Assembly (NCBI RefSeq): GCF_001302565.1
Contig: NZ_CP012750.1
Location: 1,612,001 to 1,676,000, forward strand
Source: Glutamicibacter halophytocola
GTDB lineage: Bacteria > Actinomycetota > Actinomycetes > Actinomycetales > Micrococcaceae
Length of the DNA stretch: 64,000 nt
Direction of reading: 5' to 3'
Under the pieces are notes generated by a model, which saw only the letters and a list, made by a program, of their open reading frames with translations, had not been told where the DNA came from and ran no database searches. A program made the translations under genes and the position numbers. This document shows, piece by piece, positions 16,611 to 57,441 of the stretch; positions within the stretch are counted from its first letter, which is position 1; each line of letters begins with the position of its first letter.

Positions 16611-16623
16611 GTCTTCGATAACC

Positions 16624-16675
16624 AACTAATAATGGTGTGGTGCTCCGAATTCGGAGCACCACACCATTATTAGTT
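16624..16675. terminator. Bidirectional terminator: 52-nt perfect palindrome
   Basis: A perfect inverted repeat with 26-nt arms centred on GAATTC (16647-16652), lying between the convergent ddl and DUF3515 genes. Symmetry lets it stop transcripts from both sides. No mismatch is seen over the whole length. Confidence 0.85.
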
Positions 16676-16693
16676 GCGTGTACAGCCTGTTGA

Positions 16694-38721: not shown

Positions 38722-38743
38722 GAAGGCTTGGCCAACTGCCAAA

Positions 38744-38786
38744 ACGACGTGGTGCCGGACCTCTCAAAGGTCCGGCACCACGTCGT
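38744..38786. terminator. Bidirectional terminator of the polymer locus
   Basis: A 19-bp perfect stem (38744-38762 with 38768-38786) around a CTCAA loop, between the convergent large transferase gene and the minus-strand pair. Confidence 0.82.
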
Positions 38787-38797
38787 GTTAAAGCCGA

Positions 38798-40012
38798 CTA
38801 GCGGCCAGCTTCGCTATGCTTTTCGACTAATGCAAGAGATTCGGAAATGAATCTTTGCATGCTGGAACCTGGAGTAATGTCGCCAAAGTAATAGTTGACC
38901 AACTCCTGTTGCCGGAAGCTTTGATCGGCTAAGGCATCACGTGCCGAGCTGGCGAAATCTTTTATTTCATTCGCCTTCAACGTTGGGACTTGTGCGAGCG
39001 CCGGAGAGTCAACGAGGCTGGCATCTTCCGACACGGGTTTCGTTACGTACAGTAGTTTTCCGGTGGCCAAAAAGTCATAAGCAATGGCCGATATATCAGT
39101 GACGCAGGCATCGGCAACCGACCATTGCCAACCCCAATGGGCCGAATCGTCGAAAAAGAACTGAGCTTCCGAGTCTTCGTTAGTTGTGCTCAGTTGCATT
39201 TTTATTCGTTCTAGAGCTTGCCGGTAAGCTTTTGAGTTCTGGCCCGAACGTGGGTGCGGACGAAAAATAATGTTGAATCCGCCGTCTCTGGTCAGCTCGT
39301 CAATCAGCTGTTCGCCATGAGAAAGCACCGATCCGTAATTCATGGACGGCCTGTCGCCTTCCCACGTTGGAGCGTAGAGTATCGTCGGCAGTTCGTTGTT
39401 TAAATCTATTGGTGACTCATAGTGAACATCAATTTGTGGACGGCCAACTAAGCGGCAGCGCGTTGACGCGTCGAAATTTCGCAAGTGCTTTTGCAGGCGG
39501 TCATGGGCAGCCTGGCCAGCTGAAAAAACGTAATCGTAGGCCTTGAGCTGGTTGGACCACATGTACGCTTTTTCGCTTTCACCATGGCAAATGAATACAT
39601 GGTCAGGAGAATTGAAACGCATGATTTGGAAGTTGCGGATATTTTGATTCACATAGAACACCACACGCAGATCCTGGGACTGTACTAGTCGCTCAACATC
39701 CTCAATTTTTGGCGCAAAGTGAATCGGCAGAGGGCATTCTTTGAATAAATGCATGGCGGCGTCAGGATTTCGCACGATGAGTACTACAGGAACAAACTCG
39801 GCTAAGGCGAGAAGCGGCTCGTACCATTGCCTGATCTGATATGCATTGACCATCGCATCGGGAAAGTGCAACGCGACTTTGTACCTGTCCGCACCGCCAG
39901 GTAGTTTGCGCAGCTCTGCAGCGTGATCGCGAATGAATTCTAGTTGTTTTCGAGTAGCAAGACTCGTATGGATTTTATTGATGATCCTATTGACGGTTCG
40001 ATCTATGTTCAT
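38798..40012 (-). CDS. CDP-glycerol glycerophosphotransferase family protein, paralogue A
   Basis: 404 residues. Motifs YQIRQWYEP, VFYVNQNIRNFQ, VFICHGESEK, YAPTWEGDRPSMNYGS, FRPHPRSG and CVTDISAIAYDFLATGK. It is closely related to the gene just upstream (40150-41385), with most of these motifs identical, and more distantly to the gene at 33.7 kb. The frame is open to 40153, but the ATG at 40012 has AAGGAAC at good spacing. Role in adding a polyol phosphate to the wall polymer, perhaps as primer or side-chain transferase, is inferred. Confidence 0.82.
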   Translation of the reverse strand: MNIDRTVNRIINKIHTSLATRKQLEFIRDHAAELRKLPGGADRYKVALHFPDAMVNAYQIRQWYEPLLALAEFVPVVLIVRNPDAAMHLFKECPLPIHFAPKIEDVERLVQSQDLRVVFYVNQNIRNFQIMRFNSPDHVFICHGESEKAYMWSNQLKAYDYVFSAGQAAHDRLQKHLRNFDASTRCRLVGRPQIDVHYESPIDLNNELPTILYAPTWEGDRPSMNYGSVLSHGEQLIDELTRDGGFNIIFRPHPRSGQNSKAYRQALERIKMQLSTTNEDSEAQFFFDDSAHWGWQWSVADACVTDISAIAYDFLATGKLLYVTKPVSEDASLVDSPALAQVPTLKANEIKDFASSARDALADQSFRQQELVNYYFGDITPGSSMQRFISESLALVEKHSEAGR

Positions 40013-40149
40013 AAAAGTTCCTTCACCACGAAAACTGACGCAAGAGTTAAGCATAATTTGCCGGATCTTATTTCTCGGGGCCCATGTTCTCAGTACTTGC
40101 GTCGGGTGCAGTCTTGTCAAAATTTCTAATCGCCAATGAGATCTTAGGA

Positions 40150-41385
40150 TCAAGCGGCTTTTTTCAGCGGTAGCTGTTCTGCCTGTACATCCCCTACAAC
40201 TAGCTTGAGGGACTCGGTGATGAACCGGCGCATGCTGGCGCCTGCAGCCACATCTCCAAAGTAGTATTCAACGACTTCGTGCAAGTCCATATTATTTTCC
40301 GTGAGAGCGGAACGAATGAGCGTTGGCGCATTTTCTGAGGCGTCTGCGCTCAGAGAGGGCACCCTGGCCAAGGCCGGTGAATTCTGAACCGTGGCTTCGC
40401 TAGAAGCTGGTCGGGTGACATACATTGGCTTGCCCGTTGCCAAAAAGTCGTAAGCGACTGCCGAGATGTCGGTGACGCAAAAATCCGATGTGCTCCATTG
40501 CCAACCCCAATCAGTGGTGTCGTCAAAGAACAGCTGTGCGCTCGAAGCGGCATTGGCCTCTGCCAGCTTACGGCGAATTCTTTCTACAGCCTTTCCATAG
40601 GCTGCAGAGTTCTTGCCAGACCGAGGGTGCGGGCGGAAGATCAAATTGAACCCGCCGTCACTGATGAGTGCATCGACCAGTTGCTCGCCATGTGAAACTA
40701 CAGACCCGTACTGCATTGACGGGCGGTCGCCCTCCCACGTTGGCGCATAGAGCACCGTGGGTAAGGCTGGGTTTGGGGAAAAAGGAGCCACGTATGAAAC
40801 GTCAATCTGCGGGCGTCCAATGAGGCGAGTTCGTTCATGGACATCGAAATTGTGCAATTGCGAGGTGAGGCGGTCACGTGCAGCCTGACCAGCGGAAAAT
40901 ACGAAGTCGTACGCCTTCAACTGGTTGGACCACATGTAGGACTTTTCACTCTCACCGTGGCAGATAAAGACATGCTTAGGTTCATTGAAACGCAACATCT
41001 GGAAATTTTGAATGTTCTGGTTTACATAGAACATCAGGCGCAAGTCTTGAGAACCAACGAGGCGCTCAAGGTCTTCAACCGTTGGGGCGTAGTACACAGG
41101 CAACGGGCATTCATCGCGCAAAGCCAAAGCGGTATCCGGGCGACGAGTGATGACAGCTATTGGCATGAAATCGGCCAGTTGCTTCATAGGTTCGTACCAC
41201 TGGCGGATTTGATACGCGTTGACCATCTCGTCTGCGAAATACAAGGCGGCCTTATAGCGGTCTTCGCCAACCGGAGCGTGGAGTAGATCTGTGGCATGAC
41301 GCTCGATGAATTGACGCTGCTGCTTATCAGCAAGACTTTGACGGGCACGCTTTGCCACCCTTTGCAGGGTATTCAATAGCTTCAT
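40150..41385 (-). CDS. CDP-glycerol glycerophosphotransferase family protein, paralogue B
   Basis: 411 residues with the same motif set as paralogue A (YQIRQWYEP, VFICHGESEK, YAPTWEGDRPSMQYGS, FRPHPRSG, CVTDISAVAYDFLATGK). A tandem duplication is the simplest origin. Start ATG 41385 has AAAGGAT 6 nt upstream. It is the first gene of a two-gene minus-strand operon whose upstream region faces the yceD promoter. Confidence 0.84.
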   Translation of the reverse strand: MKLLNTLQRVAKRARQSLADKQQRQFIERHATDLLHAPVGEDRYKAALYFADEMVNAYQIRQWYEPMKQLADFMPIAVITRRPDTALALRDECPLPVYYAPTVEDLERLVGSQDLRLMFYVNQNIQNFQMLRFNEPKHVFICHGESEKSYMWSNQLKAYDFVFSAGQAARDRLTSQLHNFDVHERTRLIGRPQIDVSYVAPFSPNPALPTVLYAPTWEGDRPSMQYGSVVSHGEQLVDALISDGGFNLIFRPHPRSGKNSAAYGKAVERIRRKLAEANAASSAQLFFDDTTDWGWQWSTSDFCVTDISAVAYDFLATGKPMYVTRPASSEATVQNSPALARVPSLSADASENAPTLIRSALTENNMDLHEVVEYYFGDVAAGASMRRFITESLKLVVGDVQAEQLPLKKAA

Positions 41386-41688
41386 CTCAGATCCTTTGCC
41401 GATAGTAACTGCACCGTTCTCACAAGCATAAGATCAAGATCTAGTTAAGGGCTGTTTACATGCCTTGAAACGCCCATGAACCTAGGTAATTTTAAGGTTA
41501 TGACCTAAATTCGCACAGGTAAGCCCACTGGCAGGCGGTCAAAAACAGCTTTTCGGCCCTTCGAGCCAGATGCGCATGGACTTCATTTTGAATCGCGCTA
41601 CGATATGTTGTGGTGAGTGCAACACCAACGGGAGGGTTCTATAACTGGTTTCAGTTTGGGATCTTGGGTTGTGGCAAGCTAAGATGAA
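41386..41688. other. Divergent intergenic region
   Basis: About 300 nt between the paralogue operon and yceD. AT-rich around 41440-41515. It must hold promoters for both directions; only the yceD-side candidate is recognisable. Confidence 0.5.
41656..41685 (+). promoter_or_regulatory. Candidate promoter for yceD-rpmF-rnc
   Basis: TTGGGA (41656-41661) and TAAGAT (41680-41685) separated by 18 nt. Transcription would begin near 41692, just past the ATG at 41689, which bears on the choice of yceD start. Confidence 0.4.
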
Positions 41689-42339
41689 ATGTCGGACTAT
41701 GTTTTAGTAGGAGTCATCATTAGCGAAAAGCGTTCTGATCGATCGCCACATGGCGCACTCGATCGCAACTCGCCTCTGGTTTTTTCAACCAGGGATCTCG
41801 GCCGTTCGCCGGGCTCAATGGAGATTCTCAACGAGCAGGTTCCGGCACCCGCAGATGTGGGAAATGCACTCATCGGCATTCGTGGAGGATCTGAGCTTGA
41901 CTTAGATCTTCGCCTTGAAGCCGTGCATGAAGGAATTTTGGTATCGGGTACCGCTACAGCGCAAATTGCTGGGGAATGTGGACGATGCCTGGATTCCATC
42001 GAGTACGACTACGAGGCTGATATTCAGGAGCTCTTCTACTATGAAGAGAGCGAAGAATTCGAAGACGATGATGATGTGGATCAGTATTGGGTAATCGGTG
42101 ACTTGATTGACATCGATCCGGTATTACGGAGCGCAGTGGTTACCGCCCTGCCGTTCCAGCCGGTTTGCCGGGAAGATTGCTTGGGGCTCTGCAATGAATG
42201 CGGAATCAACCTCAACGAAGACCCTGAGCATCACCATGAGATTCTGGATCCACGTTGGGCAGCGCTAGCGCAGCTGTCCGACAATGTCGCAGAGGATGCG
42301 GCAACAAATAAAACGTCAGACAAGAGAGAAGAGAAGTAG
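41689..42339 (+). CDS. yceD: YceD family (DUF177) protein, ribosome-linked
   Basis: 216 residues from the ATG. Conserved features: [17 protein letters not shown], a CGRC pair, an acidic middle, and the C-terminal [13 protein letters not shown] cysteine cluster. DUF177 genes precede rpmF in many bacteria and are tied to 23S rRNA accumulation. A TAGGAG sequence (41708-41713) lies 5 nt before an in-frame ATT (41719), and family members tend to begin there, so an unusual start is possible. It ends 2 nt before rpmF. Confidence 0.85.
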
Positions 42340-42341
42340 TC

Positions 42342-42545
42342 GTGGCTGTTCCAAAGCGGAAGATGTCCCGTGCGAATACTCGTGCCCGCCGTTCTCAGTG
42401 GAAGGCTACCGCACCGAGCTTGGTGAAGACCGTTGAAAACGGTCGCGTAACCTACAGCCTGCCTCACCAGGCTAAGGTTGTCACCGACTCGGCTGGTACC
42501 GAATTGTTCCTTGAGTACAAGGGTCGCAAGGTCGCAGACGTCTAA
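42342..42545 (+). CDS. rpmF: 50S ribosomal protein L32
   Basis: 67 residues, basic, with the L32 N-terminus [19 protein letters not shown]. No cysteines are present, so this is the zinc-independent form. GTG start, 2 nt after yceD and 3 nt before rnc, so the three are one operon. Confidence 0.95.
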
Positions 42546-42548
42546 GAC

Positions 42549-43247
42549 ATGTCTTCTAAAGAAGAACTTATGAAACGTCTCGGAATCGATATTGATTCCG
42601 AGACGTTTCGTCTTGCATTCACCCATCGCTCGTATTCATACGAGAACGGTGGCATTCCAACGAACGAACGCCTTGAATTCCTCGGCGACTCGATCCTTGG
42701 CTTCTGCGTTGCGGAATACCTCTACGCAAAATTCCCGGATCTGCCCGAAGGCGATCTCGCAAAGCGCCGTGCTGCCATTGTCAGCACCCGTGCCCTGGCG
42801 ATGATCGCTCGCGATCTGGAAGTCGGAGAGCACTTGCTGCTTGGACGCGGGGAAGCCCAATCCAACGGTGCCAACAAGTCCTCCATTTTGGCTGACACCA
42901 TGGAGTCGATTCTTGGTGCCACCTACCTGGTACAGGGGATGGACGCCGCACGAGCCTTTGTGCTGCGCTTTGTCACCCCGCTGCTAGAGGATCCCCGGCT
43001 GATTGGAGCCACAACCGACTGGAAGACTGTTATCCAGGAAGTCGTTGCCTCCCGCAAACTTGGCGAGCTTCGTTACCAGGTCACCGGATCCGGCCCGGAC
43101 CACGCCCGCACCTACATTGCTGTACTGCAAATTGGCGACGAGGGATACGGGCAGGGACATGGTCCCTCGAAAAAAGAAGCTGAGCAGGAAGCTGCCCACC
43201 AAACGTGGTTGCAGTTCAATCCTGGCGAGCAAGTACCCAAAAGCTAA
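42549..43247 (+). CDS. rnc: Ribonuclease III
   Basis: 232 residues; cleaves double-stranded RNA in rRNA and mRNA processing. The catalytic signature [10 protein letters not shown] is at about residues 39-48, a second acidic site at [10 protein letters not shown], and a C-terminal double-stranded RNA-binding domain ends with [11 protein letters not shown]. The first 20 codons contain a perfect 16-bp inverted repeat (42572-42609), described separately. rpmF-rnc-mutM order is typical of actinobacteria. Confidence 0.95.
42570..42611 (+). promoter_or_regulatory. Perfect hairpin within the start of rnc coding sequence
   Basis: Arms 42572-42587 and 42594-42609 are exact reverse complements (16 bp), extended outward by a U-G and an A-U pair; the 6-nt loop can close to a tetraloop. 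It covers about codons 8-21 of rnc. As RNA it would be a near-perfect 18-bp duplex, the kind of substrate RNase III cuts. Autoregulation is inferred by analogy with the E. coli rnc leader. Confidence 0.75.
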
Positions 43248-43258
43248 GCGCCACCCAG

Positions 43259-44179
43259 ATGCCTGAACTGCCAGAAGTGGAAGTAGTCCGTCGAGGGCTG
43301 GAAAAATGGGTGCGCACGCGACGGATCGAAGCCGTACAGGTGCTGGATCCGCGTTCGGTCAGGCGCCACCTGGATGGCCCGCTCGATTTCGAGCAAACTT
43401 TGACAGGCTGCACCATCTCCTCGGTAGTGCGCCGAGGAAAATTTCTCTGGCTAGGACTCGATGGGCTGGATGTGCCGGCGGTCCTCGTCGCGCACCTGGG
43501 GATGAGCGGCCAACTACTAGTTGAGCAGCCAGAAGCGGCGGACGAAAAACACCTTAAAGTCAGGTTGTCTCTGGAAGAGCAGCTGGACTATCCAGATGAA
43601 CTCAGATTTGTTGATCAGCGGATATTCGGCGGGATGTTCCTCTCGCCGCTGGTAGCAACCTCCGACGGGCTGCCGGCCGGGCTGGGGTCCCCAGAACCTG
43701 CCATACCCCAGGCTGCCGCGCACATTGCCCGCGATGTCCTTGACCCGAATCGCAGTGCCGAGGACCTCTATCTTGCCCTGCGCCGCCGTACTACCGACCT
43801 CAAGCGCGCCATCCTGGACCAGGCAGTCATTTCCGGGGTGGGCAACATCTACGCTGATGAGGCGTTATGGCAGGCCAAGCTGTCGGGATCCCGGAAAACT
43901 GCCACGATCAGGCGTCCTGAAGTACAACGGCTCAACGATGCACTGATCGATGTCATGACCCGCGCGCTGGCGGCCGGCGGCACCAGCTTTGATTCCTTGT
44001 ACGTGAATGTCAACGGAGCCAGCGGCTATTTTGCCCGCTCGCTCAACGCGTACGGACGCGAGGGCAAACCCTGCCTGCGCTGCGCCGAAAACGGGGTGGC
44101 CTCGGTGATCCGCCGGGACGCGTTCATGGGGCGCTCGTCCTACACTTGCCCGGTGTGCCAGCCACGTCCGCGGCGCTAG
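43259..44179 (+). CDS. mutM: Formamidopyrimidine-DNA glycosylase
   Basis: 306 residues; removes oxidised purines such as 8-oxoguanine and nicks the abasic site. The processed N-terminus PELPEVE gives the catalytic Pro and Glu; RRGKFLW carries the conserved Lys; [13 protein letters not shown] precedes the C-terminal zinc finger (CLRC and CPVC). The frame opens inside rnc, but the ATG at 43259 gives the exact family start. smc, which often follows closely, is displaced by 6 kb here. Confidence 0.95.
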
Positions 44180-57395: not shown

Positions 57396-57441
57396 AAAAT
57401 GATGGAGTGGATGCCATAGTTGGCATCCACTCCATCATTTT
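57396..57441. terminator. Bidirectional terminator
   Basis: A 21-bp perfect stem, 57396-57416 with 57421-57441, around a TAGT loop. The A-rich start and T-rich end make it work on both strands, between the convergent glycosyltransferase and MFS genes. Confidence 0.9.

Follow-up and report, generated by a model that had tools for sequence, protein, structure and literature searches.

A conserved RNA hairpin within the RNase III gene of Micrococcaceae and its probable role in feedback control

Introduction

Feedback control of RNase III in Escherichia coli, where the enzyme cuts its own message, operates through rncO (Bardwell 1989, Matsunaga 1996; as described in PMC3386247), a 5′ terminal stem-loop situated outside the coding sequence, in contrast to the hairpin described here, which lies inside rnc. 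RNase III of Staphylococcus aureus is reported to cut a stem-loop that lies within its coding region and is described as conserved in staphylococci, and protein accumulates to higher levels in catalytic mutants (Lioliou et al. 2012, PMC3386247). The S. aureus site is at +296, far inside the gene, and consists of a bulged helix cut on one side, whereas the core of our hairpin begins at +25 and is nearly perfect.

The closest described system is that of Streptomyces coelicolor, in which AbsB (RNase III) was found in vitro to cut the polycistronic message that carries its own gene, at two stem-loops of which one lies in the rnc cistron (Xu et al. 2008; PMC10126417). The gene is the same as in our locus; the second site reported there is upstream, and both cuts are said to fall in the loops of the stem-loops (PMC10126417), unlike the cut in a perfect stem proposed below. 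SCO5570 and L32 (SCO5571) are named together with rnc in PMC5775266, a grouping in Streptomyces that resembles the gene cluster of our locus. Among the papers listed by literature searches that covered few subscription journals, none dealt with rnc feedback in Micrococcales.

The rnc locus and its hairpin

The window, that is, the whole stretch of 64,000 nucleotides of Glutamicibacter halophytocola DNA that was analysed, carries rnc in a cluster with the order upstream ORF, rpmF, rnc and mutM (Table 1), in which the product of the upstream ORF is probably, by our assumption, a DUF177/YceD protein. The rpmF stop codon is followed by 3 nt and then by the rnc start, so that a shared rpmF–rnc message is likely. 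Our family sample comprised rnc from 69 Micrococcaceae genomes (64 distinct stretches), and the end of an rpmF-like ORF was located 26–114 nt upstream of the stem in 68 of these 69 loci.

Table 1. Features of the rnc locus, in window coordinates. Codon numbers count from the Thr of THRSY (position 0), so that the core occupies codons −16 to −12 and −9 to −5.
Feature	Position	Strand	Basis or remark
Upstream ORF	41689..42339	+	without NCBIfam match
rpmF, ribosomal protein L32	42342..42545	+	NCBIfam TIGR01031
rnc, ribonuclease III, 232 aa	42549..43247	+	ORF, ATG start at 42549; NCBIfam TIGR02191, 221 bits (cut-off 166)
Hairpin, 19 pairs including G.U, loop of 4 nt (42589–42592), rnc codons 8–21	42570..42611	+	RNA fold
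Core 5′ arm, AAA CGT CTC GGA ATC (Lys Arg Leu Gly Ile)	42573..42587	+	family alignment columns 10–24
Core 3′ arm, GAT TCC GAG ACG TTT (Asp Ser Glu Thr Phe)	42594..42608	+	family alignment columns 31–45
CGT CTT just 3′ of core (codons −4, −3)	42609..42614	+	first codon alone pairs, partly
mutM/fpg, DNA-formamidopyrimidine glycosylase, next gene	43259..44179	+	TIGR00577 and NF002211 above cut-off

The initial annotation of this DNA had pointed out two arms within the first rnc codons (42572–42587 and 42594–42609) that are exact reverse complements, with one or two further pairs outside them, and our analysis confirmed this observation and made it stronger than first stated. Folding extended the arms outwards by U42571.G42610 and A42570-U42611 and also inwards by G42588.U42593, which brings the stem to its full length. 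The minimum free energy of positions 42560–42620 was −29.9 kcal/mol, compared with −12.1 (sd 2.5) for 200 dinucleotide shuffles, none of which was as good (z −7.0), and reshuffling the gene's synonymous codons without altering the protein gave z −4.2 and again none of 200 shuffles as stable. The stem is placed on codon boundaries and its codons pair in register (AAA:UUU, CGU:ACG, CUC:GAG, GGA:UCC, AUC:GAU). The nearly identical peptide that had been noticed on the opposite strand is indeed there, but it follows from this in-register pairing and is a consequence rather than a second finding.

A G+C stem followed by a run of U, as in an intrinsic terminator or attenuator, was not found here, as the hairpin is followed by CTTGCATTC and the rnc frame goes on. 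No Rfam family reached its gathering score within 41600–43400, where the matches to the hairpin were microRNA models far below that score.

Selection on the RNA structure in Micrococcaceae

Across the 64 distinct family stretches, 95.2% of the cells of an 18-pair structure were paired, in comparison to 30–45% when one side was slid against the other, and both sides had changed at 10 of the 18 pairs; none of 500 shuffles equalled these sequences on any of five measures. In 39 of the 64 rows the outermost of the 18 pairs is not formed, which leaves a common core of 15–17 pairs. RNAalifold, without being given the structure, arrived at the same stem, and the 15 core pairs had a mean pair probability of 0.985 (lowest 0.747) when the 69 family genes were folded in about 200 nt of context. 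All 15 core pairs are formed in 61 of these genes, 14 in six and 13 in two. Compensatory changes in relatives, which had been proposed as a check on the hairpin, are strong, at third positions as well as over whole codons. The counter-example named at the same time, relatives with the same peptide and no pairing, is absent from the family sample, where every gene keeps at least 13 of the 15 core pairs, but is encountered in places outside the family (L143 and L149, see below).

A protein-preserving shuffle scan along rnc in the 69 genes gave a mean z of −5.15 at the hairpin, with 99% of the values below −2, and −4.35 in the overlapping next window, while the remaining windows ranged from −1.4 to +0.2. 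As no other window in these 69 genes had a mean z below −1.4, neither a second hairpin elsewhere in rnc nor an S. aureus-type stem-loop near +296 was detected.

Codon choice pointed in the same direction in the 51 family members outside the genus of the window. Arg −15 is encoded by CGT in 46 of 47 rows with Arg and Leu −5 by CTT in 43 of 50, and the fixed CGT and CTT are unusual for these genes, in which Arg +16, for example, is CGC in 42 of 50 rows (84%). Use of the modal codon was 0.85 in the stem and 0.63 outside it (p 0.003); this comparison placed the fixed −4 and −3 codons outside and the varying Gly codon in the stem. This bears on the explanation by chance or codon bias, according to which a conserved protein segment written in preferred codons happens to pair. 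A conserved segment would indeed inherit some pairing, and at least one of 200 synonymous shuffles was as stable as the native sequence in 11 of the 69 family genes (weakest L030 with 18 and L071 with 8). However, none of the 200 was as stable in the other 58 genes, and the paired double changes and the unusual fixed codons stand against it as well. Within the limits of the covariation, free-codon-pair (see below) and protein-preserving shuffle tests, this explanation is refuted and its probability is negligible.

The codons CGT CTT just 3′ of the core are also synonymously near-fixed, being retained in 45 of 46 (98%) and 42 of 49 (86%) of the rows with the respective residue outside the genus of the window. 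The context folds gave no consistent partner for them, including the end of rpmF, a pairing that was considered by eye. An alternative hairpin, GAGACG-CTT-CGTCTT (−4.5 kcal/mol), was rejected as a general feature, since it is broken by CAT at −4 (L014–L016) and by ACT at −6 (L029). CGT CTT may possibly be part of the recognition by RNase III or by another factor.

Strand and uniqueness of the element

The 31 distinct family stems contain 32 G.U cells and 3 A.C cells (binomial p 4e-7, with cells that are not independent), and this large excess of G.U indicates that the structure acts in the sense RNA. A covariance model of the element scored the rnc locus of its own genome at 77.7 bits in sense and 45.6 bits in antisense orientation and had no other match below E 1.25 in that genome, in a search that would miss hairpins of other sequence. 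Taken together, the G.U excess, the sense score and the lack of a second genomic place show that the element works as sense RNA and in one place. A cis-acting RNase III autoregulatory site would be expected to form a stable duplex in the rnc message that is selected as RNA, and to be located in the RNase III gene and nowhere else in the genome, and this is what was found.

These data also bear on the proposal that the inverted repeat acts as DNA, as a protein-binding palindrome, or through antisense RNA. The exact reverse-complement arms in the window would suit either role, and Streptomyces is reported to have an antisense RNA against rnc, but DNA or antisense pairing would break at the G.U sites of the stems and the model scores favour the sense strand, so that we regard this proposal as very improbable.

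Spread across genomes

The covariance model matched 291 of 295 Micrococcaceae genomes at E ≤ 1e-6 (per-genome matches, not each placed in rnc), and the four misses (G104, G107, G198 and G255) are the genomes without an rnc match in the protein search. At the level of the order, 81 of 248 genomes matched at E ≤ 0.001, a count that includes 19 family members and weak matches that were not all checked, and at the level of the class 36 of 296 genomes matched, mostly weakly outside the order. Of 40 order matches that were fetched, 35 were located in rnc and five (L157, L162–L165) were not located there; z was at or below −2 in 28 of the 35 and above −2 in seven. The order matches that fold keep the stem with other codons, as in AAG:CTT (Lys/Leu), AGG:CTT, GAG:CTC, CAG:CTG and AGT:ACT. 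Among the seven, which fold no better than shuffles, L143 has Gln/Leu like its paired relatives, yet its z against synonymous shuffles is −0.3, and L149 encodes nearly the peptide of L148, yet its z is +0.8. In a separate order sample of 21 loci, all 15 core pairs were present in three and at most 12 in the remaining 18. The model matches and these counts indicate that the hairpin is general in Micrococcaceae and also occurs in several other families of Micrococcales, and that further families of this order lack it or have it in decayed form.

A hairpin common to the whole class was not supported. Among 91 order and class loci, z was below −2.5 at the gene start in 16, compared with 2.4% of other windows, and these 16 include six Streptomyces-like rows and two Micrococcales loci with the rnc hairpin (L042, L050). 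A separate rnc hairpin in family f45, at approximately codons 46–66 after THR, is very stable in L332 (z −6.7) and L328 (z −4.4, scan window +68) and was rejected, as the mean z over 30 f45 loci, the L332 and L328 genomes included, was −0.6.

The Streptomyces-like genus, which we take to be Streptomyces itself (L096, L097, L099, L100, L102, L106 and L283–L312), has a hairpin of its own at the same rnc codons, with a mean z of −3.9 over 35 loci, and a second stretch near scan window +33 with −3.2. The putative stem pairs GAAGGGCGG with CCGCCCTTC; it is one nucleotide out of the Micrococcales register and involves other residues, so that the two hairpins share neither sequence nor register. Our locus does share with this genus a hairpin in the first rnc codons, and the Streptomyces hairpin may be the site mapped in the S. 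coelicolor cistron.

Coupled codons

Named GTDB genomes were scanned with a pattern in which the inner stem was fixed and codons −15 and −6 were free. At least 117 stretches matched, and 80 loci were examined, 64 in rnc and 16 outside it. Among the examined matches, the free codons were complementary at all three positions in 53 of 53 rnc loci outside Pseudonocardiaceae, with eight different codon pairs, but in none of 11 Pseudonocardiaceae rnc loci (0 or 1 positions) and in one of the 16 matches outside rnc. The 53 paired loci belong to Glutamicibacter, Arthrobacter, Rothia, Brevibacterium, Cellulomonas, Cellulosimicrobium, Promicromonospora, Microbacterium, Leifsonia, Georgenia and others, genera that we take to be Micrococcales, and the 11 unpaired loci were presumed to be Pseudonocardiaceae by genus. 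The other free pair, at the third base of the Gly codon, separates these groups less well: it is complementary in 45 of those 53 loci, but in all 11 Pseudonocardiaceae loci and in seven of the 16 other matches as well.

Pseudonocardiaceae, which matched the pattern with unpaired middle codons, were not counted as carriers of the hairpin. Their 11 loci (L175, L177, L185, L206, L222 and six more) have a 9-pair inner stem in the rnc start, for example CTCGGNGTC/GACNCCGAG, next to which the middle codons (GCG/CTG in most) do not pair, and this can be interpreted either as an internal-loop variant or as plain codon bias.

Parsimony counts were made on a quick tree built from the rest of the protein, in which long branches were flagged. 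In the family, codons −15/−6 required four changes jointly (four and three separately), whereas the control pair −15/−5 required 12 (four and nine). Over all 175 unselected rows, the corresponding values were 41 (36 and 29) and 58 (36 and 35). Other positions discriminated less: over all rows, −16/−5 required 61 changes against 58 and 59 for the controls and was no better than these, a control was as parsimonious as −12/−9 in the family, and −13/−8 in the family required 22 (18 and 14) against 23 (18 and 9). The table of codon pairs was restricted to rnc rows with 13 or more pairs (159 of 219), a choice of which the covariation, the free-codon test and the tree are independent.

The coupling extends to the protein. 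In the 69 family genes the Gly codon used at −13 is matched to the residue at −8: Ser occurs with GGA (22), Pro with GGG (14), Ala with GGC (10), and either Ala (15) or Thr (4) with GGT, while four genes are exceptions. His/Met takes the place of Arg/Thr in L037, L043 and a Yaniella locus (L203). As several Micrococcales families keep the stem with other codon pairs, the residues themselves are coupled, namely Arg/Thr, Lys/Leu, Gln/Leu, Glu/Leu, His/Met, Ser/Thr and Arg/Ala, and the Gly rule and the His/Met exchanges imply that the RNA duplex couples residues that need not touch.

A probable target for RNase III feedback

We interpret the hairpin as a target that RNase III has within its own gene and that serves feedback control, a reading to which we assign a probability of about three in four. 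RNase III would bind and cut the duplex of 15–19 pairs in codons 8–21 of its own message. With enzyme in excess, the cut would detach the remaining gene from its start codon and ribosome entry site and trigger decay of the message, and the RNase III level would fall; when other double-stranded RNA occupies the enzyme, the rnc message would survive, and its hairpin would be opened and read through by ribosomes. A duplex that is kept while its letters change is as expected for a target of a double-strand-specific enzyme. The interpretation offered in the initial annotation is partly supported, by the in-cistron rnc cleavage reported for S. coelicolor and S. aureus and by the compensatory changes; cleavage of this hairpin itself, loss of the message, feedback and competition with ribosomes are what we infer.

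Several points count against cleavage. For a substrate of RNase III, a duplex of 15–19 pairs is short, and it does not account for the near-fixed CGT CTT beside the stem. The hairpin is also lacking in many families of the order, and some of the order matches that fold no better than shuffles have nearly the peptide of their paired relatives. The unpaired L143 and L149 bear on the generality of the element, and the loop cuts reported for S. coelicolor bear on the location of the cut; neither altered the probability given above.

Alternatively, the hairpin may limit translation uncut, either by slowing ribosomes as they leave the start or as a roadblock to which RNase III or some other protein is bound. 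An in-frame start-type codon lies exactly 24 nt upstream of the stem core in 52 of the 69 family genes, the ATG of the window included, which places the stem just ahead of the initiating ribosome and not over the start site, and this position and the high stability of the stem would both suit such a role. A simple roadblock, however, is not expected in the RNase III gene alone, the one place given by a genomic search that would miss hairpins of other sequence, and cuts within the cistron have been reported for two other groups, which makes translational control without cleavage unlikely. It has to be considered as well that the hairpin could time translation for the folding of the first helix of RNase III, with no feedback involved; it does cover the conserved stretch immediately ahead of THRSY, but the same region is encoded without a hairpin in many related genes, and we consider this distinctly less probable still.

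If feedback through cleavage is correct, several bacterial families would possess a defined and testable RNase III operator inside a coding sequence. We lean, with less confidence, towards the further view that the RNA duplex has shaped the protein, in that the start of rnc would serve both as part of the enzyme and as an operator at which opening by ribosomes competes with cutting by RNase III, and that the Streptomyces hairpin either arose separately or was re-registered. This would offer a clean example from nature of an enzyme in which pairs of amino acids are dictated by RNA structure, and it would matter for the reading of RNase III conservation in these bacteria and for synonymous recoding of rnc for expression.

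Other repeats in the window

Among the first eight listed inverted repeats of the window (I1–I8), the rnc hairpin (I6) was the sole one judged to be inside a gene. I1–I5 and I8 lie beyond or between large ORFs, and I7 comes after the end of an ORF on the plus strand but overlaps two large ORFs on the minus strand. Long and nearly perfect inverted repeats located just beyond gene ends, at 16623–16676, 38741–38789 and 57396–57441, are probably transcription terminators. Two tandem ORFs of 451 and 411 aa on the minus strand (38798–41385) have HVFICHGESEK and LPT-LYAPTWEGDRPSM in common and constitute a tandem duplicate, whose products we presume, by eye, to be glycerophosphotransferase-like.
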